Shown piece after piece: positions 18,837-55,958 of a DNA stretch of 64,000 bases (within the stretch, counting starts at the first letter, position 1; each line of letters opens with the position of its first letter). Below the pieces are notes generated by a model. It was not told the origin of the DNA, ran no database searches, and saw nothing but the letters and a program-made list of their open reading frames with translations. The position numbers and the translations under genes were made by a program. Source of the stretch: Bifidobacterium [indicum] DSM 20214 = LMG 11587 (GTDB lineage: Bacteria; Actinomycetota; Actinomycetes; Actinomycetales; Bifidobacteriaceae); the NCBI RefSeq assembly GCF_000706765.1, contig NZ_CP006018.1, positions 310,001 through 374,000 on the forward strand. The letters run 5' to 3'.

Positions 18837-19748
18837 TCAGTTCTCCTTGACGGGGTGGGCTCCGTCGGTCCGCCAGCCCAGATCATCCAGGAGGCGGCGA
18901 TCCTGCTTGTCGAGGGAAGAGCAGTCCATCCGGGCAACCAGGTCTGGGCGGATTCTGCTGGTTCGCCTGATGGCCTCGTCTCGGCGGAAACGATCCACCT
19001 TGCCATGGTCGCCGCTTGTCAGGATTTCAGGGACTCCCAGGCCGCGCCAGGTTGTGGGGCGGGTGTATTGGCGGTATTCCAGGAGGGGCTCGTCGCCGGT
19101 ATAGGACTCCTGAACGATGGACTCGGGGTTACCCATAAATCCGGGCAGGAGGCGGGTTATGGCCTCCAGCATGACCGAGACCGCCACTTCGCCACCGTTG
19201 AGCACGTAGTCGCCTATCGAGTACTCTCGAACGTCGATGCCCTGACTGCGATAGTAGGTGGGAATCCTGGCATCGTAGCCCTCGTAGCGGCCGCAACCAA
19301 AGACCAGCCGGTCGGCATGGGAGAGGGCGGTGGCATCCGCCTGGGTGAAGAGCGGAGCCGAAGGGTTGGGGAAGATGAGGACCGGGCCATCCTCCACTGA
19401 CGGGTTCACATGCTCCTGGCCGGCTTCAACCGTGTTCCGGTTCGATTGGCCTGCATCCGCCTCTGCATCGGGCTGGGCTGTGGCTTCCCCGTCACTGGGC
19501 ATGGTCAGATTTGCGGGATCAAGACCAAGCAGGTCATCCAGGCACTCGGCCCATACCTCGGGCTTCATGACCATACCTGCCCCGCCTCCCACCGGCGTGC
19601 TGTCCACGGAGTGGTGAACGTCGTGGGTCCAGTCGCGCAGATTGTGGGCCTTGATGGTCACCAGGCCCTTCTCCTGAGCCTTGCCCAGCAGACTGAGGCC
19701 GGTTACGTCGAAGTACTCGGGGAAAACGGAGATGATGTCGATCTGCAT
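18837..19748 (-). CDS. trmD: tRNA (guanine-N(1)-)-methyltransferase, with low-complexity insertion
   Basis: TrmD methylates G37 of tRNAs with a G at position 36, preventing frameshifting. The SPOUT trefoil-knot core is intact: DIISVFPEYF, GGGAGMVMKPE, VFGCGRYEGYDARI, EYSIGDYVLNGGE. A Gln/Asp/Glu/Ala-rich insertion of about 45 residues (starting PANLTMPSDGEA and ending NPSVEDGP) interrupts the region between the GGGAGM helix and the strand that normally continues into the knot. ATGs at 19748 and 19754 are both possible. It is separated from rimM, its usual partner, and converges on rsmD. Confidence 0.96.
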   Translation of the reverse strand: MQIDIISVFPEYFDVTGLSLLGKAQEKGLVTIKAHNLRDWTHDVHHSVDSTPVGGGAGMVMKPEVWAECLDDLLGLDPANLTMPSDGEATAQPDAEADAGQSNRNTVEAGQEHVNPSVEDGPVLIFPNPSAPLFTQADATALSHADRLVFGCGRYEGYDARIPTYYRSQGIDVREYSIGDYVLNGGEVAVSVMLEAITRLLPGFMGNPESIVQESYTGDEPLLEYRQYTRPTTWRGLGVPEILTSGDHGKVDRFRRDEAIRRTSRIRPDLVARMDCSSLDKQDRRLLDDLGWRTDGAHPVKEN

Positions 19749-19899
19749 GGTCATAACTCTACCCAAGGTCTTTCAACCACCGTGTCGAAGATGAGGTCCT
19801 GGTGGGTGCAGGATACATGCTGGGCCCTGATGGTCGGACCCTTGGCGAGGGGTCGGCGCTCGCTGGTGTTGACAGGGTGTGGGTTGATAGGTTGGGGGT

Positions 19900-19977: not shown

Positions 19978-22900
19978 TTACTCAGGTGAAGTATTGGTGG
20001 TTGTGGGCAGGTTGTGCCTGTGTCGGTTGGCCTTGGCCGTCGCGAGGGCGAAGGAGCCGGCGATGACCAGGAGGATGATGCCTGCACCTCCGGCGTTGGG
20101 CAGGCTGCCGGTGTGCCGGTAGGTGTACGTGTTGCTGGTGTCGTCGGGCTGGGGTTGCCCGGCCAGTGTCCACCGGACTTGCGCGGGCACGGGGCCCGGG
20201 TCGTGGGCGGTGGTGGTGGCCTGCCAGGTGTTCGGTCCGGTCTGCCTGAGGGGGAGTGTGTCGTTGTCGATGGCGAGGCTGACCGGTGTGGGTTGTGGGG
20301 GGATGGTGGCGGCGTGTGGTGTCGGTGTGGGGTTGGTGTCGCCGTGTCCTGCCTGTCCGTTGGTGTTGTTTCCCCAGGCTTGGGTGTTGCCGTTGGTGTC
20401 GATGGCGGTGGTGGTGTCGCCGCCGCTGGCGGTGAGGGTGGTGTTCAGGCCGGCTATGACGGTGGGTGTGCCGGGGGTTCCGGTGGTGTGGCCGAGCTGT
20501 CCGCTGGTGTTGTCTCCCCATGCCCAGGTGCGGTGGTCCTGTCCGGTGGCGGCGCTGTGGTTGCGTCCGGTGGAGGTGTGGGTGAATCGGTACGTGTCGG
20601 CCGTGCCTGCGGGCTGGATGCGTGCGGGGGTGGTGGTGTCGGTGCCGTCGGCGTGCCTGCCCCAGGCCCAGAGGCGTCCCTGCTGGTCGATGGCGAGCGT
20701 GGTGCTGCCGCCGGCGCTGGCCTGGATGTAGCCTGCGGGCTGCCGCGGGTCGGAGGCCACTGCTGCGGCGGCTGCGGGGGTGCCGGTGTCGTCGTGGCCG
20801 AGCTGGCCGTGCGTGTTGGCGCCCCAGGTGTAGAGCTGCCCGTCGGACCCGATCGCGGCGGCGTGCGTGTCGCCCGCCGCGATCTGCTCGTACCGGAACG
20901 CGGGTGGCGCGTCCTGCGGCAGGGCGACCCTGACGGGCCTGGCGCTGCTCGCGGTGCGTGCCTCGTCGCCGAGCCCGCCGGCGAGCGTACCCCAGGCGTA
21001 GAGGTTGTCGTCGGAGCCGAGGGCCATGGTGTAGCCGTCGCCGGCGGCGGCCCGCGTCCAGGTGAACGTGCTGTCGGTGCCGGCGGGGCGGGAGGCCCTG
21101 ACGGGCCTGGTGCGCCGGATTGTGGTGCCGTCGCCGAGCTGGCCTTGGGTGTTGTCGCCCCAGGCGTACAGGTTGCCGTCGGAGCCGACGGCGGCGCTGT
21201 GGGTGCGCCCGGCCGCGGCCTGCGTCCAGGTGAACCCGTCACCGGAACCGTCGGGCTTGGCGACCCGGGTTGGGGTGGTGTGCTCGCTGGTGGTGCCGTC
21301 GCCGAGCTGTCCGTTGGTGTTGTCTCCCCATGCGTAGAGTTGTCCGTCGGATCCGATGCCGAGGCTGGTGGTGCCGCCCGTGTCGATGGAGGCGAGGCGG
21401 ATGTCGGGTGCTGCGGGTGCGGTGAGGGTGAGGGTGTCGCCTCCGTATTCGCTGCCGTGGTCCGGGCTCAGGACCCACCTGCCGGTCCGGTGCCACCGTG
21501 CGGTCAAGGTCGTGTCGTGCTCCAACGGCTGGGTGAAGTCGTAGGCCGTGTCCCCGTCGAACCACCCGTCGAACGTCCACCCGGACTCGGATGGGTCTTC
21601 GGGCCGCCTGGTGGGCTCGCCCGCGGGGACCTGCTGGACGTTAGGGGCGTTGCCGTGCTGGGTGGTGAAGGTGAGGGTGGCCATGTCGCCCGTGTACATG
21701 AATTGCAGGCTGGTGTCCTCGGGCTGTGCCTGCCCGGTATTGGTTGATTGGATGGTTAGGGCGACGGCTTCGGGACGGTGCCTGGGCGAAGCGGCGTGCC
21801 ACCCGTCTGCTCGGCGGCGCACCTGGCTCGCGCTGGGCTTGGCGCCGAACAGGACCCCGGTGACGGCGGCGCCGACCGGCCGCCACATCATGGCCGGGCC
21901 TGGATGGGCCGCGGTGGACGTGTTCCCGTCGCTGGTGCCGTCGCCGAGCTGACCCGAGTCGTTGGCACCAGACGCGTACACGTCCCAGTCGGAGCCGACG
22001 GCCAGCGTATGGGAGCCGACGGGCGACGTACTGAGGCTTCTATACGCGAACCCGGTCGGTGCTCCCTTGGGGTTTGGCATGCGGGCAGGGGCCACGCCGT
22101 CGTTGGTGCCGTTGCCGGTGGTGGTGCCTAGCTGCCCGTACCGGTTGCCGCCCCAGGTCCAGATCCCGGAGTCGGTCAGTGCGGCGGAGTGCGTGCGTCC
22201 GGCGCTGACGCCGGTGGCTCCGGTCACGCCGGGGACGGCGCCTGCCATCCATGCGGGTTCGGCATCGGTGGGAGTGCGGCCCAACTGGCCGCTATCATTG
22301 TGCCCCCAGGTGTGTACGGTCCCATCCCGAGTGACACCCGCGGAATGGTCGTTACCCGCGCTGACGGCTATGAACCTCTCCTCCGTGATGGCGGTCGGCG
22401 CGTAGTTGACATAAACAAGCCACGAATTGTTCCAGGGTTTATTCCACGGGTTATCGTGACCGAGCAGGTCGTTGTCGCTCGTGGTGCCTCTGGTGTTGCT
22501 GCCGCCCCAGGTCCAGGCGGTCCCGTTTATGTCCAGGCCGATGGAGTGCTTGGTGCCCGCGCTGACGGAGGCGAAGGTCGCCTCGGGCACGTCCACGCTC
22601 TTGGGTGTCGCGGTTGGTTTGCCGAAGCCGGTGTCGTAGCCCAGTTGTTGGTATTGGTTGTCGCCCCAGGTCCAGGTGTTGCCTTCGCGGTCGATGGCCA
22701 TGCTGTGGTCGGCTCCGGCGCTGATGGCGATGAAGGTCACGCCCGCTGGTGAGGCGATTTGGCCAGGCTTGTTGGAGGGGTTGCCGCTGTCGGGGTTGCG
22801 TCCGAGTTGTCCCTTTTCGTTGCTGCCCCAGGTCCATACCCTGCCGTCCCGGTCCAGGGCCATGGAGTGGCTGCCCCCGGCGGCCGCCTGGATGAATCCT

Positions 22901-25098
22901 GTGCCTGCGGGCGTGGTGGCCTTGGTGGCGGTGGTCTGGTTTGTGGTGGTGTCGTCTCCGAGCTGACCACTGGTGTTGTTGCCCCATGCGTACAGGTTGC
23001 CGTCGCTGCCGACGGCCAGCGAGTGGGATTGCCCGGCGGACACCTGGGCGAACCGTACCGGTGCGGTGGGGGTGTCGATGCGGATGTCGGTGCCGCCCCG
23101 CCAGGGCCCCTGGGCGGGGTCGGCCTTCCACCGGCCCCAGCGTGCGGTCAGGACCGTGTCTCCGTTTATGGGCTTGGTGAAGTCGTAGGGTTTGTCGTTC
23201 TGGAACCAGCCGTTGAAGGTCCACCCGTCGTCCGTGGCGGGGTTGTCCGGGCGGCGGGCGGTGTCGCCGACGATGACCTGCTGGGACGGGATGGGTGAGC
23301 CGTGTTCCGTTTTGAAGGTGACGGTGGCGGTGTCGCCGGTGTAGGTGAACCGCTGGCTGGTCTGGTCGGGCTGTGGTGTGCCCTTGGTGACGGTGGATTG
23401 GATGGTGAGGGTGACGGTGCCCAGTCCGTGCCTGGGCGAGGTGGCGTGCCATCCGTCGACACTGCGGTAGGGGCCGCCGATGTTGCGGGTCTCGCCGAAC
23501 AGGACCTTCGTGAGATCACGGTCGACAGGACGCCAGGCCCTGATTGGTAGAGTGGTGCGGATGCCATAGGGGGGGATGGCGCCGTTGCCGAGCTGACCGT
23601 GGTCATTGCTTCCGCACGTGTACACTTCGCCATCGGACCCAATGAGTGCGGTGTGTTCATGGTCGGCTGCGACGCTGATGTAGTGAAAGCCTGCAGGTGC
23701 CCCGTCTGGGTTGGCGAATCGAGTGATGACGGATTCGGTGGGGTCGCGGTTGGTGGTGCCGTTGCCGAGCTGGCCTTCTCTGTTAAATCCCCACCCCCAT
23801 ACACCGGTGTTGGTGATGACGGCATTTTGAGTGCTTATGCCGAGTTGGAAGGCTCCGGTCAGGCCGGGGACCTGTCCGGGCTTGATGGCGGAGTTCTTGT
23901 CGTCTATGTTACGGCCAAGGTGAATCATAGAGATTCTCCTGTCATCGGCATCGGTAAAGTCATGTAAATATGCGTCCATCCAGGTCCATACGGTACCGTC
24001 CCGCGCGATGGCCATGAAAATACTCCATCCGACGCTGATGGCCGTGAACCTTGTATTGGTATCGACAAGGCGGGGATTCAAGTTGTATGTTGTTCGACTA
24101 GTTGGTTCTCCCCAGATCCAGACGGTCCCGTCCGCGGCAAGGACCATGCTGTAGGTGGCGCTGGCGCTGATTGCGGTCGCCGTGGGTAAGTCCAACGTGC
24201 CGGGCTTATCTCCAAATAAGCTGTCTCTTCCCCAGGTCCAGACTCTGCCGTCCTGGTCGAGGGCCATGGAGTGGCTGCCCCCGGCGGCCACCTGGGTGAA
24301 TTTCACCCCCTCCGGTACTGAGATTAGACCGGGATTGGGGTCATTTGCGCTGCTACCGGAGGTAGGACGGCCGAGTACGCCTCCAATGTTGCTGCCCCAG
24401 GTCCAGACTCTACCGTCCCGGTCGATGGCCATGGAGTGGACGTAAGACCCGCTGGCCACCTGGGTGAACTTCACTCCCTCCGGCATGGCGATCATCCGCG
24501 CAGCAGCTAAGTCTCGGCTCTGGTCGCTACCCATCCCCAGGTGCCCTTCTTCGTCTTCTCCCCACGCGTAGGCGTTGCCATCGCTGCCCAGCCCCAGGCA
24601 GGATCTACTTCCTAAGACAACTTGGACGAGTCGTACCTGACTGCCGGGGGTGTCGAGTTTGACGTTGGTGCCGCCGTGCCAGGGTCCGTTGTCGGGGCTG
24701 GTGTTCCATTTGCCCCATTTGGCGGTGAGGGTCAGGTCCTGGGTGACTGGCTTGGTGAAGTCGTAGGCGAGGTCGCCTATGAACCATCCGTTGAAGGTCC
24801 ATCCGGGCCTGGTGGGGTCGTCGTGTGGCCATGTGGCGGTCTTGCCGTCGGGGATGGTCTGGCCTGCCGGCATGCCCTGGGTGTCGGGCTGTGAGGTGAA
24901 GGTGACCGTGTGGCTGCCGGTCCTGGCCTGCGCCGGATTCTCCTTTGCGCCGGTTGTTTGCGTTCCGGCGGGTACGGGTGCGGTGGACTGCCTGGTGGTG
25001 AGCGGGTTGGGCGTGGACAGCGGCGTGGGTGAAGCCGTGGCTGTCGTGGCCTGCGTCGCCGCTGCCGGGGACTGCGGTGTTGCGGTGGGTGATGGCAT
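19978..25098 (-). CDS. Giant RCC1-repeat / InlB B-repeat cell-wall-anchored protein (body; out of frame with its signal peptide)
   Basis: The 1706-residue frame has no signal peptide of its own and no ribosome site before its first ATG at 25098, but it is open to 25140, where it meets a run of 12 G. With 11 or 14 G it would join the secretion signal encoded just upstream, giving about 1776 residues. Order: Thr/Pro-rich linker; three modules, each one InlB/Listeria-Bacteroides beta-repeat (GWTFNGWF...YDFTKP...LTAKWGKW, near 24700-24890, 23110-23330 and 21480-21690) followed by many RCC1-type repeats (HSMALDRDGRVWTWG); a C-terminal sorting signal LPNAG (20089-20103), hydrophobic helix and basic tail. 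It is probably an adhesin-like surface protein. Function and ligand are unknown. Confidence 0.85.
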   Translation of the reverse strand: MPSPTATPQSPAAATQATTATASPTPLSTPNPLTTRQSTAPVPAGTQTTGAKENPAQARTGSHTVTFTSQPDTQGMPAGQTIPDGKTATWPHDDPTRPGWTFNGWFIGDLAYDFTKPVTQDLTLTAKWGKWNTSPDNGPWHGGTNVKLDTPGSQVRLVQVVLGSRSCLGLGSDGNAYAWGEDEEGHLGMGSDQSRDLAAARMIAMPEGVKFTQVASGSYVHSMAIDRDGRVWTWGSNIGGVLGRPTSGSSANDPNPGLISVPEGVKFTQVAAGGSHSMALDQDGRVWTWGRDSLFGDKPGTLDLPTATAISASATYSMVLAADGTVWIWGEPTSRTTYNLNPRLVDTNTRFTAISVGWSIFMAIARDGTVWTWMDAYLHDFTDADDRRISMIHLGRNIDDKNSAIKPGQVPGLTGAFQLGISTQNAVITNTGVWGWGFNREGQLGNGTTNRDPTESVITRFANPDGAPAGFHYISVAADHEHTALIGSDGEVYTCGSNDHGQLGNGAIPPYGIRTTLPIRAWRPVDRDLTKVLFGETRNIGGPYRSVDGWHATSPRHGLGTVTLTIQSTVTKGTPQPDQTSQRFTYTGDTATVTFKTEHGSPIPSQQVIVGDTARRPDNPATDDGWTFNGWFQNDKPYDFTKPINGDTVLTARWGRWKADPAQGPWRGGTDIRIDTPTAPVRFAQVSAGQSHSLAVGSDGNLYAWGNNTSGQLGDDTTTNQTTATKATTPAGTGFIQAAAGGSHSMALDRDGRVWTWGSNEKGQLGRNPDSGNPSNKPGQIASPAGVTFIAISAGADHSMAIDREGNTWTWGDNQYQQLGYDTGFGKPTATPKSVDVPEATFASVSAGTKHSIGLDINGTAWTWGGSNTRGTTSDNDLLGHDNPWNKPWNNSWLVYVNYAPTAITEERFIAVSAGNDHSAGVTRDGTVHTWGHNDSGQLGRTPTDAEPAWMAGAVPGVTGATGVSAGRTHSAALTDSGIWTWGGNRYGQLGTTTGNGTNDGVAPARMPNPKGAPTGFAYRSLSTSPVGSHTLAVGSDWDVYASGANDSGQLGDGTSDGNTSTAAHPGPAMMWRPVGAAVTGVLFGAKPSASQVRRRADGWHAASPRHRPEAVALTIQSTNTGQAQPEDTSLQFMYTGDMATLTFTTQHGNAPNVQQVPAGEPTRRPEDPSESGWTFDGWFDGDTAYDFTQPLEHDTTLTARWHRTGRWVLSPDHGSEYGGDTLTLTAPAAPDIRLASIDTGGTTSLGIGSDGQLYAWGDNTNGQLGDGTTSEHTTPTRVAKPDGSGDGFTWTQAAAGRTHSAAVGSDGNLYAWGDNTQGQLGDGTTIRRTRPVRASRPAGTDSTFTWTRAAAGDGYTMALGSDDNLYAWGTLAGGLGDEARTASSARPVRVALPQDAPPAFRYEQIAAGDTHAAAIGSDGQLYTWGANTHGQLGHDDTGTPAAAAAVASDPRQPAGYIQASAGGSTTLAIDQQGRLWAWGRHADGTDTTTPARIQPAGTADTYRFTHTSTGRNHSAATGQDHRTWAWGDNTSGQLGHTTGTPGTPTVIAGLNTTLTASGGDTTTAIDTNGNTQAWGNNTNGQAGHGDTNPTPTPHAATIPPQPTPVSLAIDNDTLPLRQTGPNTWQATTTAHDPGPVPAQVRWTLAGQPQPDDTSNTYTYRHTGSLPNAGGAGIILLVIAGSFALATAKANRHRHNLPTTTNTSPE

Positions 25099-25120
25099 AG
25101 CGGTCGGTGCTGTCAGGCCT

Positions 25121-25309
25121 TCACCGGCGACCGGGGGTTGACCCCCCCCCCCCGTTGATTTGAGAGTAGGAGGTGATGTCGTTCTCTTGATGGGAGTCGG
25201 TGGCCTGCGCCCCCGCCGTCAGACCGCCGCCCATGACGGAAAGGACCGCCAGGGTCACGACAACTGGACGTGCGAAACAACGACTATGGAACGCGTTCCA
25301 AATAAGCAT
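25121..25309 (-). CDS. Signal-peptide 5' fragment of the RCC1 surface gene (terminates 20 codons after poly-G in this phase)
   Basis: Reads MLIWNAFHSRCFARP, then a hydrophobic core VVVTLAVLSVMGGGL and a cleavage site after AQA (residue 36), a standard Sec signal. It continues TDSHQENDITSYSQIN, then four Gly from the 12-G tract, and stops at STPGRR. Stop falls inside the open body frame. The ATG at 25309 has GAGG 11 bases upstream; an in-frame GTG at 25321 is an alternative. By itself it would make a secreted peptide of about 26 residues, so it is best read as the 5' end of the large gene in the OFF phase. A sequencing error in the homopolymer is the main competing explanation. Confidence 0.85.
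   Translation of the reverse strand: MLIWNAFHSRCFARPVVVTLAVLSVMGGGLTAGAQATDSHQENDITSYSQINGGGGSTPGRR
25142..25153 (-). repeat. Homopolymeric tract of 12 G (sense strand): phase-variation switch
   Basis: Twelve C on the plus strand, 12 G in the coding sense, inside codons 53-56 of the surface gene. Length 12 leaves signal peptide and body in different frames; 11 or 14 aligns them. The tract is followed by TCAA and CCCCC, so its end can form a GGGGG/CCCCC hairpin. Confidence 0.9.
25287..25300. promoter_or_regulatory. 14-bp perfect palindrome in the signal-peptide codons
   Basis: TGGAACGCGTTCCA is its own reverse complement and lies just inside the start of the surface gene. It could be a regulator site, but its centre is GC rather than the CG usual for LacI operators. 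Confidence 0.3.
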
Positions 25310-25644
25310 GCGACAAAGCACCTCACCAACTCATATCCTGGCCCAAGTAACAACTACCGACTCGTCCCCAAAACGAAGCCGAAGTTGGCCGGGCCAGGAA
25401 TCACCCCTTCAAAAGTAAACTTACTTGACCCTACCACCCCGTGGTCCCTCCACGCAACGCGGCAGGGGTAAGCCGAAAGCAGCTACCCAGGCTGTTCCCT
25501 GGCAGGAGTAAGGTCCGGCTGGTTCTCGGATGGAGTCCAACCGGTGAGAGGCGAAGGGATTATCCGGGAGAATTCGAGGTGAGCCGGTTCATATGTCGGG
25601 ATCATGTTCCTTGCGAGGAGGAAGCACGGAAGCCGGACTGGCTT
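25310..25644. other. Non-coding stretch upstream of the phase-variable gene
   Basis: 335 bases with no credible gene, holding the presumed promoter of the surface gene on the minus strand. An inverted repeat AAGTAA-AC-TTACTT (25413-25426) lies about 110 bases before the start and is a candidate operator. No convincing -35/-10 pair could be fixed. A 70-codon plus-strand frame here has no coding character. Confidence 0.5.
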
Positions 25645-26661
25645 TCAATGTAGCAGGCTGATTCCGGTCCAGACGGCCCAGAGGGCGGCCAGACCCAGAT
25701 AGGGCCACCAGTGTGACCTGGTCACGGCCGCGAATTCCCGGATGAACGCCGTGGGCCAGTAGTAGCCCTTGGTGTGGGAGCCGACACCATCGGCCTTGAG
25801 CCCCACCTTGCTGGCATATTCGCTTGCACGGAAAACGTGGTAGTCGCTGGTCACCAGGGCCACCCGATATTCCTGCGGCCCCCTGCCGGCCTTGTACAGG
25901 TCGTCCAGAATCCCTTTGGAATAGCGGAGGTTCTCCATGGTTGTGGTTGATCTGTCTTCCATAATGATGGCCTCAGCCGGTACTCCGCAGGAGTTCATCA
26001 GGTAGTTCGACATGGCCTGGGCCTCGCTTACCTCCTCGTCGGGACCCTGTCCGCCCGAGACCACGAATCTGCCTTGCTTGCCCTGTTTCCGCCAGAGCTG
26101 TAAGGCCTTGTCGAGCCGACCGCGGAGGAGTGGGGTGGGCTGGTCCCCGTTCAGTCCGGCACCGTGCACGATGATGTAGTCGTACCGCCGCTTGCGGGGG
26201 AGTGCCCGGTAGAGCCAGGAGTAAAGCAGAAGGGCCACGAAGGAGAAGAAGAACCAGGTGCCCTCAAGGCTGACGAGCCCCGCAGGAACCAGACACCAGC
26301 GGGGGGCGTCGAGGATGAGCAGGAGGGGGGAGAGCAGCAGGTAGAAGGCCATGGCCAGAGCCAGGAGGGCTGGTAGAAGAGTGGTCAGGGAGATGCCTTC
26401 CCGCCGGGTGACGATGACCGTGTTGGTCAGGAGAAAGGCAACGACGAGAATGGGTGTGAGAATCACCAGGGCGACAATGGGCAGAATCAACCACCGCAAA
26501 CCGAATTGCAGGACCAGGGTTCCGCTCAGGAACACGAGGAAAAGAAGGAGCCAGATGGCGTTGCGGAATTGTCTGGGTTCCCGGTGCAGTCCAAACAGGA
26601 GGAAGAGACCCGAGATGATGGTGGGGGAGTAGAGCAGGAGCAGCTGAGGGATATTGATCAT
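25645..26661 (-). CDS. YdcF/SanA family membrane protein (DUF218 domain)
   Basis: A 338-residue protein with five or so hydrophobic helices in its first 170 residues and a C-terminal DUF218 domain: YIIVHGAGLNGDQPTPLLRGRLDKAL, VVSGGQGPDEEVSEAQAM, EDRSTTTMENL, TSDYHVFRA. DUF218 proteins (YdcF, ElyC, SanA) are linked to envelope integrity and may bind nucleotides, but no reaction is established. A final hydrophobic helix lies at the C-terminus. The ATG at 26661 has AGGTG seven bases ahead; an in-frame GTG at 26670 is an alternative. It is downstream of rimM on the same strand with a 168-base gap, and upstream of the surface gene. Confidence 0.88.
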   Translation of the reverse strand: MINIPQLLLLYSPTIISGLFLLFGLHREPRQFRNAIWLLLFLVFLSGTLVLQFGLRWLILPIVALVILTPILVVAFLLTNTVIVTRREGISLTTLLPALLALAMAFYLLLSPLLLILDAPRWCLVPAGLVSLEGTWFFFSFVALLLYSWLYRALPRKRRYDYIIVHGAGLNGDQPTPLLRGRLDKALQLWRKQGKQGRFVVSGGQGPDEEVSEAQAMSNYLMNSCGVPAEAIIMEDRSTTTMENLRYSKGILDDLYKAGRGPQEYRVALVTSDYHVFRASEYASKVGLKADGVGSHTKGYYWPTAFIREFAAVTRSHWWPYLGLAALWAVWTGISLLH

Positions 26662-26829
26662 GCCATACACCTGGTTTCGTGTCCGGAGAGGGTTCTAATC
26701 CACAGCCTACCCAGGTCGGGTGTCAATGTGCACTGTGGTTGGTGTGGCGCGTTTACAGGGTTTCGGGGTGTTCCCCGCAACAGGCAACCATCCCGACGGG
26801 TGAGGGTAGAGGGTGTCGTTACCCCGGCC

Positions 26830-48791: not shown

Positions 48792-49472
48792 ATGGAGCAG
48801 ACCAGACGGGTTGTCGTGGCTACCCACAACCAGGGCAAACTGGTCGAGATGCGTCGCATTCTGCAGTCCCTCCTGGGACGTGGGCAGACCGGGATCGAGC
48901 TCGTATCTGCTGCGGACCTGAACCTGCCCGACCCGGTTGAGACCGGGACCACGTTCGAATCCAACGCCCTGCTCAAGGCCAACCAGACGGCGGAACTCTC
49001 CGGTCTGCCCGCCCTTGCTGACGATTCCGGACTGGTTGTCGATGTCATGGGTGCGGCCCCCGGCATCCTCTCGGCCCGTTGGTGTGGTCGCCATGGAGAT
49101 GATCAGGCCAACATCGACCTCCTGCTCAACCAGTTGTCCGACATACCCGATCAGGACCGGACGGCACGGTTCGTCTGCGCCGCTGCCCTGGTTGTTCCTG
49201 ATGGACCGGAGTACCCGGGAGGGAATCGCCACACCGTGAGGCTGGGCGAGATGTCGGGCAGGATCATTCGCGCACCCAGGGGTGAAGATGGGTTCGGTTA
49301 CGACCCGATTTTCGTCCCCGATGATCAGCCGGCCTCAGCCGACCGTCCCCTCACATCCGCCGAGATGACCCCCGAGCAGAAGAACCGCATCTCCCATAGG
49401 GGGAAGGCCCTGTCCGCCATCCTGCCGGTCCTGGTCGAGTGGGTTCTGGGGGATACCGGTGTCCAGGCCTGA
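48792..49472 (+). CDS. rdgB: XTP/dITP diphosphatase (RdgB/HAM1)
   Basis: A 226-residue house-cleaning pyrophosphatase that hydrolyses dITP and XTP. Motifs are VVVATHNQGKLVEM, ALADDSGLVVD, GEDGFGYDPIFVP and ISHRGKAL. AAGGAGGATC precedes the ATG. Its last 14 bases overlap the start of the sortase gene, so the sortase is probably translated from the same mRNA. Confidence 0.95.
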   Translation: MEQTRRVVVATHNQGKLVEMRRILQSLLGRGQTGIELVSAADLNLPDPVETGTTFESNALLKANQTAELSGLPALADDSGLVVDVMGAAPGILSARWCGRHGDDQANIDLLLNQLSDIPDQDRTARFVCAAALVVPDGPEYPGGNRHTVRLGEMSGRIIRAPRGEDGFGYDPIFVPDDQPASADRPLTSAEMTPEQKNRISHRGKALSAILPVLVEWVLGDTGVQA

Positions 49473-50430
49473 ATCCGATGCGGGAACGCCGGCCTTTGCC
49501 GGTGTTCTTGCCGGTGACGGAAGAACCCCCTCCTACAGGCGTTGGAACAGGCTGAACCTGGTTCTGCAGATACTGATCGTCCTCCTCCTGCTTGCTGCCC
49601 TTATATGCGTGGTTTGGATTCCCGCCGTCCAATACATGTCCCAACGTCGTTCAGCTGCGGAGGCGGAAAACGCCGCTTCCCGTATGGCTGCATGGCCCCA
49701 GGGCAGAATCAGGGCCGAGTATGCCAAGGCCAAGGCCTATAACCAGAGAATCGCGGCCTCGGGGCAGACCACCCTGGGCGAGGCGACCGACCCCTTCGCT
49801 CCGGGCAAGGGAGGCACCCTGTCACAGGAAGACAAGGCCTACCAATCCCTCCTTGAGGGGCCGGGGGGAATCATGGGGACCATTCGTATACCCCAGGTCT
49901 CCATCCACCTGCCCATCTATCACGGGACCTCCGAGGAGGTGCTCCAGGATGGGGTGGGGCATCTGTACGGCACCAGCCTGCCGGTTGGCGGAGCCTCCAC
50001 CAATGTGGTCCTTTCGGGGCACAGGGGGCTGACCAACGCCCTCCTCTTCACCAGGCTGGATGAACTCAAGCCCGGTGACATCTTTTACATCGACAGCCTG
50101 GGCAGGACCATGGGTTACCGGATCAAGTCCGTGCATGTGATCGATCCGGAGGATGTGCACCTGTATAAGGTGGTGCCGGGCAAGGACCTGGTGACCCTGA
50201 TGACCTGCACCCCCTATGGGGTCAATACGCAACGTCTGGTTCTGACCGCCGAGCGTCAGTCCATACCGGAGCCCATACCGGACCCGGGTGATGCGCCCAA
50301 GGATGGGCGTCTGCTGGGCCTGATGACGGGGTTGGGCCTGCTGGTGGTGGGGACCGTCTCGTCCGTCGTTGCCTTCAGATTCAGGCTGCCGCCACGGCAC
50401 CGTCTGGGGGAATCCGCCGGGAAGGCCTGA
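49459..50430 (+). CDS. srtC: Class C (pilus-polymerising) sortase
   Basis: A 323-residue membrane transpeptidase with an N-terminal membrane helix (IVLLLLAALICVVWIP) and a second, C-terminal hydrophobic helix typical of class C. Catalytic residues: His188 (SGHRGL), Cys250 (TLMTCTPYG) and Arg259 (NTQRL); TLMTCTPYGVNTQRL is the hallmark of class C. Such enzymes link pilin subunits through LPXTG signals. The GTG at 49459 overlaps rdgB. The two pilin genes lie 0.5 kb further, separated by an antisense tRNA-Leu. The sortase therefore precedes the pilins rather than following them as in most fim operons. Confidence 0.93.
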   Translation: MSRPESDAGTPAFAGVLAGDGRTPSYRRWNRLNLVLQILIVLLLLAALICVVWIPAVQYMSQRRSAAEAENAASRMAAWPQGRIRAEYAKAKAYNQRIAASGQTTLGEATDPFAPGKGGTLSQEDKAYQSLLEGPGGIMGTIRIPQVSIHLPIYHGTSEEVLQDGVGHLYGTSLPVGGASTNVVLSGHRGLTNALLFTRLDELKPGDIFYIDSLGRTMGYRIKSVHVIDPEDVHLYKVVPGKDLVTLMTCTPYGVNTQRLVLTAERQSIPEPIPDPGDAPKDGRLLGLMTGLGLLVVGTVSSVVAFRFRLPPRHRLGESAGKA

Positions 50431-50456
50431 GTCGTAGCGGCCTGAAGCAAATCCGG

Positions 50457-50537
50457 TGCGCGAGATGGGACTCGAACCCACACGTCCGAAGACACAGGAA
50501 CCTAAATCCTGCGCGGCTACCATTACGCCACTCGCGC
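50457..50537 (-). tRNA. tRNA-Leu (anticodon TAG)
   Basis: Acceptor GCGCGAG (50531-50537) pairs with CTCGCGC (50458-50464); the anticodon loop TTTAGGT on a CAGGA/TCCTG stem reads TAG (codon CUA). A T-arm GGTTCGAGTCC and a short variable arm typical of a class II tRNA are present. CCA is not encoded. It is antisense to the flow between sortase and pilin genes. Confidence 0.95.
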
Positions 50538-50937
50538 CCAAGGCCGCGGGTATGTGCGGATGCCCGCGAATACCCACGCCTATTCATAAATACCACAACG
50601 GTGGGATGGTTGTTTTGAGGAAGATACGGACACTATCCTCCAAAAAAAGTCCGACTATTTTCCGGGAAAACAAGAAAAAGTTAGTTATCCATGAATCTCG
50701 GCATGCCGGGAACCGGAGAGACCGGGCGCTTCATAGCGCATTTTTATTATCGACACGCCGCCATTTGTAAAAACCGAGAGTCAATCACCGGTCATGTAGC
50801 GTCCAATTATGTGGACCGAAGCAACGGGTTCACGCGTTGATCTCTGGTAATCGAGTACCGGGTCCGCTTCGGCGGTATCGGGCCGACCGATCAAGCGATT
50901 GGAATGGTCGACGGGAATCAGGGTGAAGGGGGTTGCG
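50538..50937. other. AT-rich intergenic region before the pilus operon
   Basis: About 400 bases without a gene. It must hold the tRNA-Leu promoter (minus) and the pilus promoter (plus), but I cannot fix a -35/-10 pair with confidence. It contains an A-run at 50642-50648 and a short hairpin with T-run at 50726-50745. Composition is distinctly lower in GC than neighbouring genes. Confidence 0.5.
50726..50745 (+). terminator. Terminator-like hairpin in the pilus leader
   Basis: GCGCT-TCAT-AGCGC followed by A and five T. Short, but of intrinsic-terminator form, about 190 bases before the pilus start. The same T-run contains TATTAT (50745-50750), which could instead be a -10 element. Confidence 0.4.
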
Positions 50938-53900
50938 ATGGGAATCAGCCATTGGAATGGGAATTCGCCAGTACGCAAGCGCGGCTTCAAGAGGCTGTCC
51001 TCCCTGTTCGCAGTGATTCTGGCGGTTTTCATGGTTCTGCCGCTCTCCCTCCAGTTCACCTCCCAACCCGCCAATGCCGAAACCGTGGACCACAAGCCCA
51101 AGCTCTTCCAGATGATGGCCTACAACGACCGTATCGATACCAATAACGACGAACTGCGCTACGACTTCGTACTGCGGCTGGCCCATGGCGATTTCGATCC
51201 GTTCTGTGTGCCGAACGGGAGCTACGACGACGGCAGCAAATGCCGGCTCTTTTTCGCATATCAGTACTGGGGCACGACCAGTCCGAGCGACTACGTGTCT
51301 GTTCGTTATCTGAACACCATGACGACCGGCAACGTCTCGGGTACGACGGGTGCGATTCAATGGGCCGCGAATAAGGATCAGTACTTTACGGTCCACAAGG
51401 TGATCAACTCGGGCGATTACGACTACCTGGCCATTTCCGTCGAGGCTGATGTCAACTTTGCCGATAACCTCGGTCAGCTGAACTCCGTCGGGAATTCGTA
51501 CACGAGCGACTCCGGATACGCGCCCGGTGGCATCACCCAGGTTGAGCGGGTCTACGCCATCCTGACCAAGACGGCGGGACCTGCCAGTCTGGCCTGCGGC
51601 TGGGGTAGTTGGAACGGTGTCGGCGAGTGCGGCAATATGCCCACCGATCAGTTCGACGAAAACGGTGCCGCCAAGTACGGGTCCGCAATCAACAACATCA
51701 TGTATGGGGTTGACCTCCTGCGTAAACCCGATGGGAGTTACTACACCTATCAGCTCTACCAGCAGCGGTGCGCCGATCCGGGAAACCAAACGACGCACTA
51801 CTGCAATGGTCCGGTCGCCTTCATCGGTTGGGATGGTTACCCGTTGCTCTGGAGTCAGAACCAGGCCAATTGGGGCCTGGTGACCGATTTCGGATTTGAT
51901 CGGGCCTCCTTCGGATGGAACTGGAACGCCGCCAACAGTATCGGGTTCTACAACGATGGCAAGACGGAATATGCCATTCCGCCGGGCGTGGCCCCGGCCA
52001 ATTCGTTCTTCGTTTACTGGTACAACTCCGCGAACGATACCGCTTATACAACGCAACAACCCGACGGAACCTGGGCATCGTGGATGTCCATGTCGAACTG
52101 CTCCAGGAATGCCAGCTTCTACTACCAATGGCTGGGTTTGAAAAACAACAAGTGGGTTCCGGTTGATTCCCTGACGCCCCATGCGGTCAGGGTGGACCAG
52201 AACCCGGTGACCAACGACTCGGGCAATGAGGGGAATTTCTCCATGGCCAGCTCGGCCTTCAACTCCATAACCGCGCTGAGCGGTAATGGTGGCCTTGCGA
52301 ACCGGCCCAACAGGCTCTTCCTGGATCGTTCCACGTCCCCGGCACAGGGATACACCCTGGATACCGCCGGTGGCAAGGTGACGGTCAATGATGGCTCCAT
52401 CAACTTCGCCAAGGCCAAGGAGGACCAGGGACTGGACGGGTACTTCAAGCTGGTCACCTGGCCCATCACCACCAACCAACCTGATGCCACCAAGCCGGCG
52501 ACCGATCCCGCCAATTCGGATGACTCCCTCCTGCAGGGGTGCATGGCCTCCCTGAACACCACCTACAAGGGATCCAATGCCGCTCAACGCATCCAGCAGG
52601 CCAAGGCGGCCCAGAATCCGCTCTACGACCAGCCGGATGGAGCCAAGGGAATCACGGATTCCATGAGCCAGGACCAGATCAACGATGTGATATCCAAGGG
52701 TTGGACCATCGACACGGCCTTCTACCGCTATGATGTTCCACGCCCTCAGGATCCGACAATCAACTCGATTGGTGGAAAGGCGATCGGCAAGGACAACCCG
52801 GTTGCCTACTCCTCCACCCTGTCTCCTGTCGTATCCGGTACCTGTACCCCCGGCAACAGGGTCACCCTCTTCGGTGAGGACCCCGCACATCCCATCAAGG
52901 ATACTGGTACGAATCCCGACCCGGACAACCGTGATACGGCCGGTGTGAATCTGGGTGAGACCATCTGCGGTTCGGACGGTACATGGAGCATCACCGATGC
53001 CAACACGGCATATGGCGGTCAGAGTCCGGCCGTGCCGCCCAACGCGGACGGTGGCACCCGCCGATACCATGCCTGGCAGACCGAGCTGTCGACCAGCTAC
53101 GACATGACATCCGGGTTCACCAACATCGCCAAGGCTGTCTTCCAGACCAAGCCCGAACAGGCGCCGACGGTTGATGCGGTGTCGGTGCCCCACACCAAGC
53201 GCGACGAGAGCATAGGAACCACGGCCCTTCCGCAGGGCTCGCAGGTCAAGGTATCCGGCACGGTTTCGCCCGCTTACCTGAAGAACCCCTCCGACAGCCT
53301 CTCAAGGGACTCCACGCTGACGGTGACCATGACACCGTCCGGAGGAGCAGGGTTCAACCGGGAGTCCACCCTGGCCGTGTCCGCTCAGGGTACGTTCACC
53401 ACAGGAGGTGCCAGGAGCAGCTCCCCGGCGGTCATGTCCGGCTCAACCCTGACGGTGACCCGGCCGAGCGCCTCCCAGCCATGGAAGTGGTCCCTGACCA
53501 TGGAACCGAGCGTCTTCCTGGCGAACATGGATGGGTCCGAGTCCAGCCAGACCTACCAGTTCCAGGCCTTCCTGACCAATCAGGCCGGAACCGCCTCACC
53601 GCGCGGAGCCCAGACCTTCCTGGTCGATATGACACCGACCGAGACCACAATCACCAAAGCCAACTCGCACCAGGTATCCGGTAAGGCTTACATAGCCGGT
53701 CATGGGAACATACCCGAACGCGATGCCTCCCTGAAGGTCACCTGGCCGGATGGAAGCACCGATACTGCAACCACCGACGCAAGCGGCTCCTGGAACGTAC
53801 GGGCCCCAGCCGGTCTTTCCTCGGGGGATGTGTCGGTGACCCTGACCGATACCGCCGGTAACGAGTCTGGCCGTTTCGAAAGGCACATCGGGCTTGTGCC

Positions 53901-54039
53901 CCCTGTGCAACGGCTGCCCTTCACGGGTGGCGGACCCCGCCTGATCCTCCTGATCGTGGCGGCCATAATCCTGGCTCTGACAGCCTGCCTGGCTATCTGG
54001 GTCCGGCAACGACGAGGTTTCGGTCGGCTGGTTTCATGA
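50938..54039 (+). CDS. Large LPXTG surface protein / putative pilus tip subunit
   Basis: A 1033-residue secreted protein. A basic N-terminus (RKRGFKRL) and hydrophobic core (FAVILAVFMVLPLSL) end at a probable cleavage site after ANA. The long middle part is Tyr/Trp/Asn/Gly-rich and shows no domain I recognise. The last 300 residues resemble Ig-like beta domains (DASLKVTWPDGSTDTATTDASGSW). It ends with LPFTG (53914-53928), a hydrophobic helix and RQRRG tail. The ATG at 50938 follows GAAGGGGG. It is the first gene of the pilus operon and probably caps or decorates the fibre as the FimB-like tip. Confidence 0.88.
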   Translation: MGISHWNGNSPVRKRGFKRLSSLFAVILAVFMVLPLSLQFTSQPANAETVDHKPKLFQMMAYNDRIDTNNDELRYDFVLRLAHGDFDPFCVPNGSYDDGSKCRLFFAYQYWGTTSPSDYVSVRYLNTMTTGNVSGTTGAIQWAANKDQYFTVHKVINSGDYDYLAISVEADVNFADNLGQLNSVGNSYTSDSGYAPGGITQVERVYAILTKTAGPASLACGWGSWNGVGECGNMPTDQFDENGAAKYGSAINNIMYGVDLLRKPDGSYYTYQLYQQRCADPGNQTTHYCNGPVAFIGWDGYPLLWSQNQANWGLVTDFGFDRASFGWNWNAANSIGFYNDGKTEYAIPPGVAPANSFFVYWYNSANDTAYTTQQPDGTWASWMSMSNCSRNASFYYQWLGLKNNKWVPVDSLTPHAVRVDQNPVTNDSGNEGNFSMASSAFNSITALSGNGGLANRPNRLFLDRSTSPAQGYTLDTAGGKVTVNDGSINFAKAKEDQGLDGYFKLVTWPITTNQPDATKPATDPANSDDSLLQGCMASLNTTYKGSNAAQRIQQAKAAQNPLYDQPDGAKGITDSMSQDQINDVISKGWTIDTAFYRYDVPRPQDPTINSIGGKAIGKDNPVAYSSTLSPVVSGTCTPGNRVTLFGEDPAHPIKDTGTNPDPDNRDTAGVNLGETICGSDGTWSITDANTAYGGQSPAVPPNADGGTRRYHAWQTELSTSYDMTSGFTNIAKAVFQTKPEQAPTVDAVSVPHTKRDESIGTTALPQGSQVKVSGTVSPAYLKNPSDSLSRDSTLTVTMTPSGGAGFNRESTLAVSAQGTFTTGGARSSSPAVMSGSTLTVTRPSASQPWKWSLTMEPSVFLANMDGSESSQTYQFQAFLTNQAGTASPRGAQTFLVDMTPTETTITKANSHQVSGKAYIAGHGNIPERDASLKVTWPDGSTDTATTDASGSWNVRAPAGLSSGDVSVTLTDTAGNESGRFERHIGLVPPVQRLPFTGGGPRLILLIVAAIILALTACLAIWVRQRRGFGRLVS

Positions 54040-54092
54040 CCGGTCGGACTTCCAGCCAAGAAAAATGTGAAGAGTCAATAAGTAAGGAGAAG

Positions 54093-55958
54093 ATGATGGG
54101 TGTACATAGTCAACTTCGTCGGGGGCTTTCCCTGGCGACAGCCGTGGCTGCCCTCCTGGGGGTGTCCCTGGTTGGGGTGGGGTCGGCCAGCGCCGATACC
54201 ACGGTCGATGTGAGTGCCAACGACGGTCAGATAACGTTGAAGAACGCCGTTGCCGGGCACAAGTATGCGGCGGTCGAGATCGCCACCTACCAGGATGCCA
54301 CGGTCAACGGTGACAACAAGGTGAGCAACATTTCAATCGCGACCGTTCCGGATCTCGTGGCGGATGCCGAAGCCGCCCTCGCCGAGGCCAGAGGTGGAGC
54401 GACTTCTGACCCGGCCTATGCCAACAACCCTGTAGGCGAGGTGGCCAGCAAGTGGTTGGGCTATGCCTCCCCGGGCAGCGAGGACACGGTATCGAATTCG
54501 GGTTCGGCTGCAGATGCCTGGGGCCGTGACGGCAAGCTTCGTCAGTTTGTCACCGCCCTAGCCAAGACATCGACCTTCACCACCAAGGTGACGGGGTCGA
54601 CCGCCACGGTTACTCCTGCCGCCGATGGGGATGCCAGCCTGTCCAGCCTTCCCGAAGGCCTGTATATCATCTCCGATGTCACTAATGTTCAGGGAAGCAC
54701 CAACACGCGTATCAACTCGATCCCCATGCTGGTGGGTACCACCGTCGGCCCCGAACACATCACCGACTTCGTTGACGGCATGCCTGTGGGAACCATCAAC
54801 ATCAAGGATGATGAAAACAGCATCTCCAAGGAGCTCATCCAGACTGATGCCGACCGCGGTGCCTCGGTCTCAATCGGTGACTACCTCCACTATCGCCTGA
54901 CCCTGAAGGTTCCTCTGACCACAGGATTCAACCCGGATACCTTCGTGTACAAGGTCACTGATACCCCTGGCAAGGGATTGGACTTCGTCAGCGACGAAGC
55001 CCATCCTGTTGTGGTGAAGGCCAGGTCCGGGAGCGATGCCGCGGCAACGGCCCAGGATGCCGCAAGTTACATAGTCACCCCTGGCACTCCGACCGATGGC
55101 GCCACCGGAGTGGAGTTCGATCTGACCAAACTGGTCGTGAACAACGATCCGGCCACCAGGCTGACCTGGAAGGACCCCATCACCATTGATTACTACATGC
55201 GAGTCAATGATTCCGCCCAGGCCGGTAAGCTCTCCAATTCGGCAAAGCTGACCTTCTCGAACCAGCCCGGTGGCGGGTCGACCGGAACCATCGTCACGCC
55301 CGACACTCCGACCAATGCGGCCTACTTCTACAACTTCAAGATCCGTAAGGTCGCCAAGAGCGATGGTGCGGCTCTGACTGATGCCGAGTTCTCCGTGACC
55401 CGGTCGGACGGCACCGCTCCGCTCTGGTTCAACGAGCAGAGTGCAGGCAAGTACATGCTCGCCATGAACCAATCCGCACCGGCAACGGGGCAGAACCAGA
55501 CGACCGTCCTCAAGACCGACAATACGGGCACCCTGTCCGTCGATGGTCTCAGTGCCGGCAAGTACAGCGTTGCAGAGACCAAGCAGCCTGACGGTTACTC
55601 GTCGGCCTTCAAGCCTACGTTCAATGTCGATATCGTCCTGGAGAAGACGGGCAGCAAGCCCGATGCAAGCAAGCCCGTCATCACCAACGAGGCGGATACC
55701 TGGGGACTCGTCGCTGCTACGACCACCAACCAGGCCCAGGTCAGCCAGCCTGTCTATGATGCCAACCACGTCCTGACGTCGCCCTGGTCGCAGGGCTTCC
55801 CCAACGCAATCACCATCAACAACGTCAAGTCCATTTCCCAGCTGCCTCTTACCGGTGGTGCCGGAATCATCCTGGCGGTCCTGCTCGCCCTGGTGCTGGC
55901 AGGTGCGGCAGGTGTGCTGATTGTTGTGAGGAACCGCACCAACAAGATGCGAGTCTGA
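54093..55958 (+). CDS. Major pilin subunit (FimA-like) with LPLTG
   Basis: A 621-residue secreted pilin: signal peptide (SLATAVAALLGVSLVGVGSASA|D), D2-type isopeptide/pilin domain (VSIGDYLHYRLTLKVP), a second beta domain with the E-box YSVAETKQPDGY near the C-terminus, and the sorting signal LPLTG (55842-55856) with helix and basic tail. The expected pilin-motif YPKN is not seen; at the equivalent place the sequence is GTINIKDDENSISKEL, where the NIK lysine may serve instead. AAGGAGAAG precedes the ATG at 54093; ATG at 54096 is also possible. It follows the tip gene after 53 bases and should be polymerised by SrtC. Confidence 0.88.
   Translation: MMGVHSQLRRGLSLATAVAALLGVSLVGVGSASADTTVDVSANDGQITLKNAVAGHKYAAVEIATYQDATVNGDNKVSNISIATVPDLVADAEAALAEARGGATSDPAYANNPVGEVASKWLGYASPGSEDTVSNSGSAADAWGRDGKLRQFVTALAKTSTFTTKVTGSTATVTPAADGDASLSSLPEGLYIISDVTNVQGSTNTRINSIPMLVGTTVGPEHITDFVDGMPVGTINIKDDENSISKELIQTDADRGASVSIGDYLHYRLTLKVPLTTGFNPDTFVYKVTDTPGKGLDFVSDEAHPVVVKARSGSDAAATAQDAASYIVTPGTPTDGATGVEFDLTKLVVNNDPATRLTWKDPITIDYYMRVNDSAQAGKLSNSAKLTFSNQPGGGSTGTIVTPDTPTNAAYFYNFKIRKVAKSDGAALTDAEFSVTRSDGTAPLWFNEQSAGKYMLAMNQSAPATGQNQTTVLKTDNTGTLSVDGLSAGKYSVAETKQPDGYSSAFKPTFNVDIVLEKTGSKPDASKPVITNEADTWGLVAATTTNQAQVSQPVYDANHVLTSPWSQGFPNAITINNVKSISQLPLTGGAGIILAVLLALVLAGAAGVLIVVRNRTNKMRV

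Follow-up and report, generated by a model that had tools for sequence, protein, structure and literature searches.

Replication slippage in a poly-G tract is known to act as an ON/OFF switch of the sortase-dependent pilus genes bbr_0113 and bbr_1889 of Bifidobacterium breve UCC2003 (Penno et al., 2022; PMC9187656), as the preliminary description of the present locus had stated in general for bifidobacterial pilus genes. In B. breve 59% G12 was found where the reference gives G11 (PMC9187656), and a shift of the tract toward ON has been reported for the pili in mice. The accompanying survey was limited to sortase pilus clusters of human-associated species, with no bee species listed (PMC9187656). 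Poly-G ON/OFF contingency loci of surface proteins, along with multi-gene phase-variable repertoires, are described for Campylobacter and Neisseria (PMC7168839, PMC5953494). For honeybee bifidobacteria, the passages on RCC1 surface proteins in Bottacini 2012 (PMC3447821) and Ellegaard 2015 (PMC4449606) give 7-24 copies with an LPxTG-type anchor, a Listeria-Bacteroides repeat preceding each RCC1 domain, and 3-domain proteins as well as one 4-domain protein in the Bifido-2 group. Those RCC1 passages of Bottacini 2012 (PMC3447821) contain no description of G-tracts or phase variation, and a word search of Ellegaard 2015 (PMC4449606; phase, frameshift, slipped) returned none. Literature outside subscription journals yielded no report joining either the RCC1 family or bee-gut Bifidobacterium with phase variation.

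The window considered here is a 64-kb stretch (bases 310001-374000) of the genome G000, a single contig of 1,734,546 bp; G014 (1,755,151 bp) served as the same-species comparison genome. We consider it very probable that one gene of this window, gene A, is a contingency (phase-variable) locus for a predicted cell-wall-anchored surface protein with RCC1 and Listeria-type repeats.

Gene A: reading frames, tract and product

The tract is a run of 12 G on the minus strand (25142-25153; C12 on the plus strand), which separates two minus-strand open reading frames. The first, from ATG 25309 to the tract (25154-25309), reads MLIWNAFHSRCFARPVVVTLAVLSVMGGGLTAGAQA followed by TDSHQ...SYSQIN, and encodes what by eye and hydropathy is a Sec-type signal peptide, with likely cleavage after AQA (25202) leaving a short mature stub whose last residues, at the tract, are SYSQIN. 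The second, the body (19978-25140; 1,720 codons), is uninterrupted from the tract to its stop at 19978, has its first ATG at 25098, and lies in a different frame from the signal ORF. A frame test over n=9-15 reproduced exactly the earlier claim that the signal peptide is out of frame at the 12-G run: with n=12 translation stops at TPGRR after about 62 codons, and n=9, 10, 12, 13 and 15 all terminate at 61-65 aa. Joining needs n = 2 mod 3, with n=11 giving 1,776 aa and n=14 giving 1,777 aa, in agreement with the continuous signal-to-LPNAG protein of about 1776 residues that had been predicted for 11 or 14 G; the joined product carries 4-5 glycines right after the signal and LPNAG near its end. 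The repeat is thus positioned such that gain or loss of units toggles the gene.

The start signals show the same division. The ribosome-binding region upstream of ATG 25309 (GGTGAGGTG; 25310-25330, minus strand), conserved in the G014 orthologue, has an anti-SD duplex energy of -10.0 kcal/mol against a background 5% quantile of -9.3, and both in-frame candidate starts of the body have +0.4 kcal/mol. The body is indeed open up to the run, with neither a signal nor a ribosome site of its own. Further upstream, a near-palindrome AAGTAA-AC-TTACTT (25413-25426) is conserved in alignments ahead of gene A and its paralogue B in both genomes, is absent from paralogue C, and is possibly a regulator site. 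A consensus scan of 25200-25700 detected neither a sigma-70-like promoter nor a terminator.

A chance origin of the run is rejected: the next longest G or C runs in the window are of 7, shuffling the body synonymously 2,000 times never produced a run above 8, GGG makes up just 33 of its 219 Gly codons (15%), and by a Markov estimate 64 kb should contain about 0.01 G runs of this kind. Across the whole G000 genome the run lengths form two modes, with exactly 7 occurring 25 times, 8 twice and 9-14 sixteen times, and the second of these is the pattern expected of maintained repeats. Two further long runs of this genome deserve mention in their own right. A G10 at 566159-566168 joins two ORFs (297 and 470 aa) that overlap in different frames and have no Pfam match; they constitute a further candidate phase-variable gene. 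Another G10, at 542565-542574, lies at the extreme 3' end of an undecaprenyl diphosphate synthase gene, where a change in length would alter the C-terminus.

The body consists of three modules, each a Listeria-Bacteroides repeat with an RCC1 propeller, with three matches of the former and six RCC1-like stretches recognized in Pfam (PF25390, E=6e-218; PF00415; PF13540; PF09479); the InlB repeat named in the preliminary description corresponds to the last of these families. An AlphaFold model of module 1, of moderate quality (mean pLDDT 64) and used only as confirmation of the RCC1 propeller fold, resembles UVR8/RCC1 propellers. Near the C-terminus an LPNAG cell-wall sorting motif (20089-20103, minus strand) precedes a hydrophobic stretch, after which comes a basic tail containing Arg, Lys and His. 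Gene A accordingly has the features of the RCC1 surface family, namely the Listeria-Bacteroides repeat with RCC1, a secretion signal and an LPxTG-type C-terminus. Its product would be wall-anchored by one of the three sortases of the genome, among which the one encoded in the window (49459-50430, plus strand; PF04203, E=2.6e-29) is a candidate. This sortase gene opens a pilus-type cluster (49459-55958, plus strand) that also includes a 1,046-aa ORF and a SpaA/GramPos_pilinBB protein; no G run in it reaches 8, in contrast to the pilus clusters of B. breve with their tracts.

Gene A is a stand-alone gene flanked by trmD (18837-19766) and a DUF218 gene (25645-26670), with rimM also among its neighbours. 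The closest named matches of this trmD are from Bifidobacterium asteroides-group species of bees, and since none of the named species so matched showed an RCC1 gene next to trmD, the insertion site looks species-specific. A search of the body protein against genome contigs by short-peptide seeding, from which its own genome was possibly excluded, found no relative.

The tract in paralogues, orthologues and the genus

The tract recurs at the identical junction (...SQIN-Gn) in two paralogues of G000, B (214195-214205) and C (403050-403063), and in all three G014 orthologues. By their frames, gene A has G12 and is OFF in both genomes, none being ON; paralogue B has G11 and is ON in both; and paralogue C has G14 (OFF) in G000 and G13 (ON) in G014. 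As the flanks of paralogue C are identical over 150 bp per side between the two genomes, its tract length must have changed without substitution. More generally, five of eight orthologous tracts differ in length between G000 and G014 (14/11, 10/15, 11/12, 14/13 and 10/12, with two G014 tracts fitting about equally well as the partner in the 14/11 pair), compared with 3 of about 420 control homopolymer sites of length 4-8. The repeat is therefore both kept beyond chance and variable in length among relatives, with gene A itself having 12 in both genomes. Upstream of paralogue C, around a terminator-like hairpin (CCCCCC...GGGGGGTCTTTTT), a separate tract is G10 in G000 (403428-403437) and G12 in G014 (416975-416986); the length of the C/G runs at this hairpin might modulate read-through.

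In paralogue D (392419-397746) the sequence ...SYTQVNGGMKAT... runs through in frame and is tract-free in both genomes; judged by its frame, D is a fixed-ON relative. According to the preliminary description, switching would be refuted if the junction of orthologues were invariant, in frame and free of repeats. The orthologue of gene A does not fit this condition, as it has G12 and is out of frame, although a fixed in-frame junction does exist in paralogue D. NG86 dN/dS ratios between the orthologues are 0.36 for both C and D, 0.38 for A and 0.60 for B. Since the ratio of A is similar to that of the tract-free D, its body is not decaying, and these values indicate that it is under purifying selection despite being OFF in each assembly. 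Over its C-terminal third (19978-21700), gene A resembles paralogues B, C and D more than its own orthologue, which suggests gene conversion among the RCC1 genes.

RCC1 relatives are present in 24 of 27 same-genus genomes, and in 18 of the 27 their genes carry G-tracts at the junction or within the signal (14 genomes by frame analysis and four more by a junction motif). In the frame analysis, which took tracts of at least 9 G and covered G014 in part, the tracts that lie in RCC1 genes are 28 of 80 in G002, 9 of 36 in G007, 3 of 16 in G000 and at least 3 in G014. Across 11 genomes there are 76 occurrences of the motif Gn-N-CGNCARACNCC, against 0 matches of a reversed-pattern control; the in-signal type occurs in four genomes, and a scan of viral contigs for the junction found none. 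Two placements are seen: between the hydrophobic core and the cleavage site of the signal (...LALIVL-Gn-IQLAQPAHADP) in G002, G021, G026 and G001, and just after the signal (...SAQADAPILT-Gn-RQTPRVA) in G007, G018, G020 and G008. A second surface family of G002 (PAPPACN[IV]A[TS]DPISQCFSPSLG...) likewise has G11 tracts within signal peptides, e.g. at 1384491, 1522798, 1691831 and 1702680.

Over 86 distinct genes (one duplicate removed), 27 are ON and 59 OFF, an ON fraction of 31% that is near the one third expected under free phase; all these lengths are taken from assemblies, in which tract lengths are unreliable (PMC9187656). The counts are not strong evidence because of a probable length bias in two genomes: tract lengths stop at 11-12 in G002, and in G020 16 of 16 genes are OFF, 14 of them with exactly 12. 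Either assembly bias or OFF-favouring culture may lie behind these patterns.

Probable switching and its alternatives

By sequence, translation begins at ATG 25309 and yields the signal peptide; 12 G place it out of frame, with a stop after about 62 codons, and 11 or 14 G give a single export-competent protein of 1,776-1,777 residues ending in LPNAG. Slippage of DNA polymerase on the tract probably alters its length at high frequency, such that a population would be a mix of ON cells and of OFF cells whose only product is the short secreted stub. Tracts of their own are present in paralogues B and C, so that cells would display differing combinations of RCC1 proteins. We tentatively speculate that this could serve adhesion in the bee gut or vary what phages or host defences see.

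The slipped-strand switching proposed in the preliminary description is supported by the comparison of genomes: by the retention of the tract at the junction of three paralogues in two genomes, the 14 versus 13 tracts with identical flanks, the purifying selection on an OFF body and the occurrence of the layout in 18 of 27 genomes. It is improbable that the frame break is instead a sequencing or assembly error hiding a true G11 and an intact, constitutive gene. Homopolymer lengths are frequently wrong in assemblies, G11 would restore the frame of gene A, and the G002 lengths appear capped; yet an error of this kind does not account for the upkeep of an uninterrupted G run at this site in three paralogues, both genomes and tens of sister genes despite 15% GGG usage. 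Nor does it fit with some two thirds of the genes being out of frame across many independent assemblies, or with the paralogue C pair differing by 14 versus 13 in otherwise identical flanks.

That transcriptional slippage or ribosomal frameshifting gives some full-length protein at any DNA length, so that the tract sets a level and is not a heritable switch, strikes us as very improbable, even though G12 is a plausible RNA polymerase slippage site and such a process would explain the preserved body of an OFF allele. The lengths span all three phases among orthologues and paralogues, which those of a level-setting site need not do, and in B. breve DNA length changes go with expression (PMC9187656). 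Such slippage is possible as an addition to a DNA switch. Least credible of all is a fixed loss of function. In G000 and G014 alike gene A has G12 and is out of frame, as a decaying pseudogene would be, but neither a stop nor a further frameshift interrupts the 1,720 codons of its body, the alignment shows an undamaged signal part in both genomes, and we reject this reading on the dN/dS of 0.38. Given the relatives, slipped-strand switching is much the best explanation that the sequences offer.

Comparison with known systems

G-tract phase variation has mostly been studied in pathogens. On balance, we favor the view that a genome of bee-associated bifidobacteria can hold as many as about 28 genes for RCC1 propellers, every one of them governed by a separate poly-G switch located at the signal peptide or within it; such a phase-variable surface repertoire would count among the larger ones known for a gut mutualist. 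If so, one clone carries a great number of surface combinations, and a beneficial bacterium from the core community of the honeybee gut toggles a whole family of giant propellers gene by gene, providing a concrete reason for the diversity of the RCC1 family and the clonal heterogeneity of bee-gut bifidobacteria. The bee, as a tractable, low-complexity host, would then offer a test case of whether tract lengths move toward ON as those of B. breve pili do in mice. In public genomes, many tract-bearing RCC1 genes are likely annotated as signal-less or truncated.

The closest mechanistic parallel is the pilus switch of B. breve in the same genus, which shares with gene A signal and body ORFs in different frames at a G-tract (G10-G12 in B. 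breve), a body devoid of start signals, an LPxTG-type protein and a productive state upon loss of one G. Whereas the pilin genes there head operons with a sortase, gene A is not the first gene of a sortase-dependent pilus cluster but a stand-alone RCC1/Listeria-repeat gene between trmD and a DUF218 gene, and it has many sister paralogues, each apparently switched independently. With the honeybee RCC1 surface proteins, as portrayed in the published passages on them, it shares the architecture of a Listeria-Bacteroides repeat before RCC1 and an LPxTG-type anchor. With the Campylobacter and Neisseria loci it shares homopolymeric G switching of surface proteins, the hosts there being Gram-negative and the proteins unrelated. 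Thus, the RCC1 family and the poly-G switching of pilus genes are both already known, and what appears new, relative to the literature covered, is their being joined, in an unusually large repertoire; the surprising parts are the scale of that repertoire and the placement of tracts within the signal.
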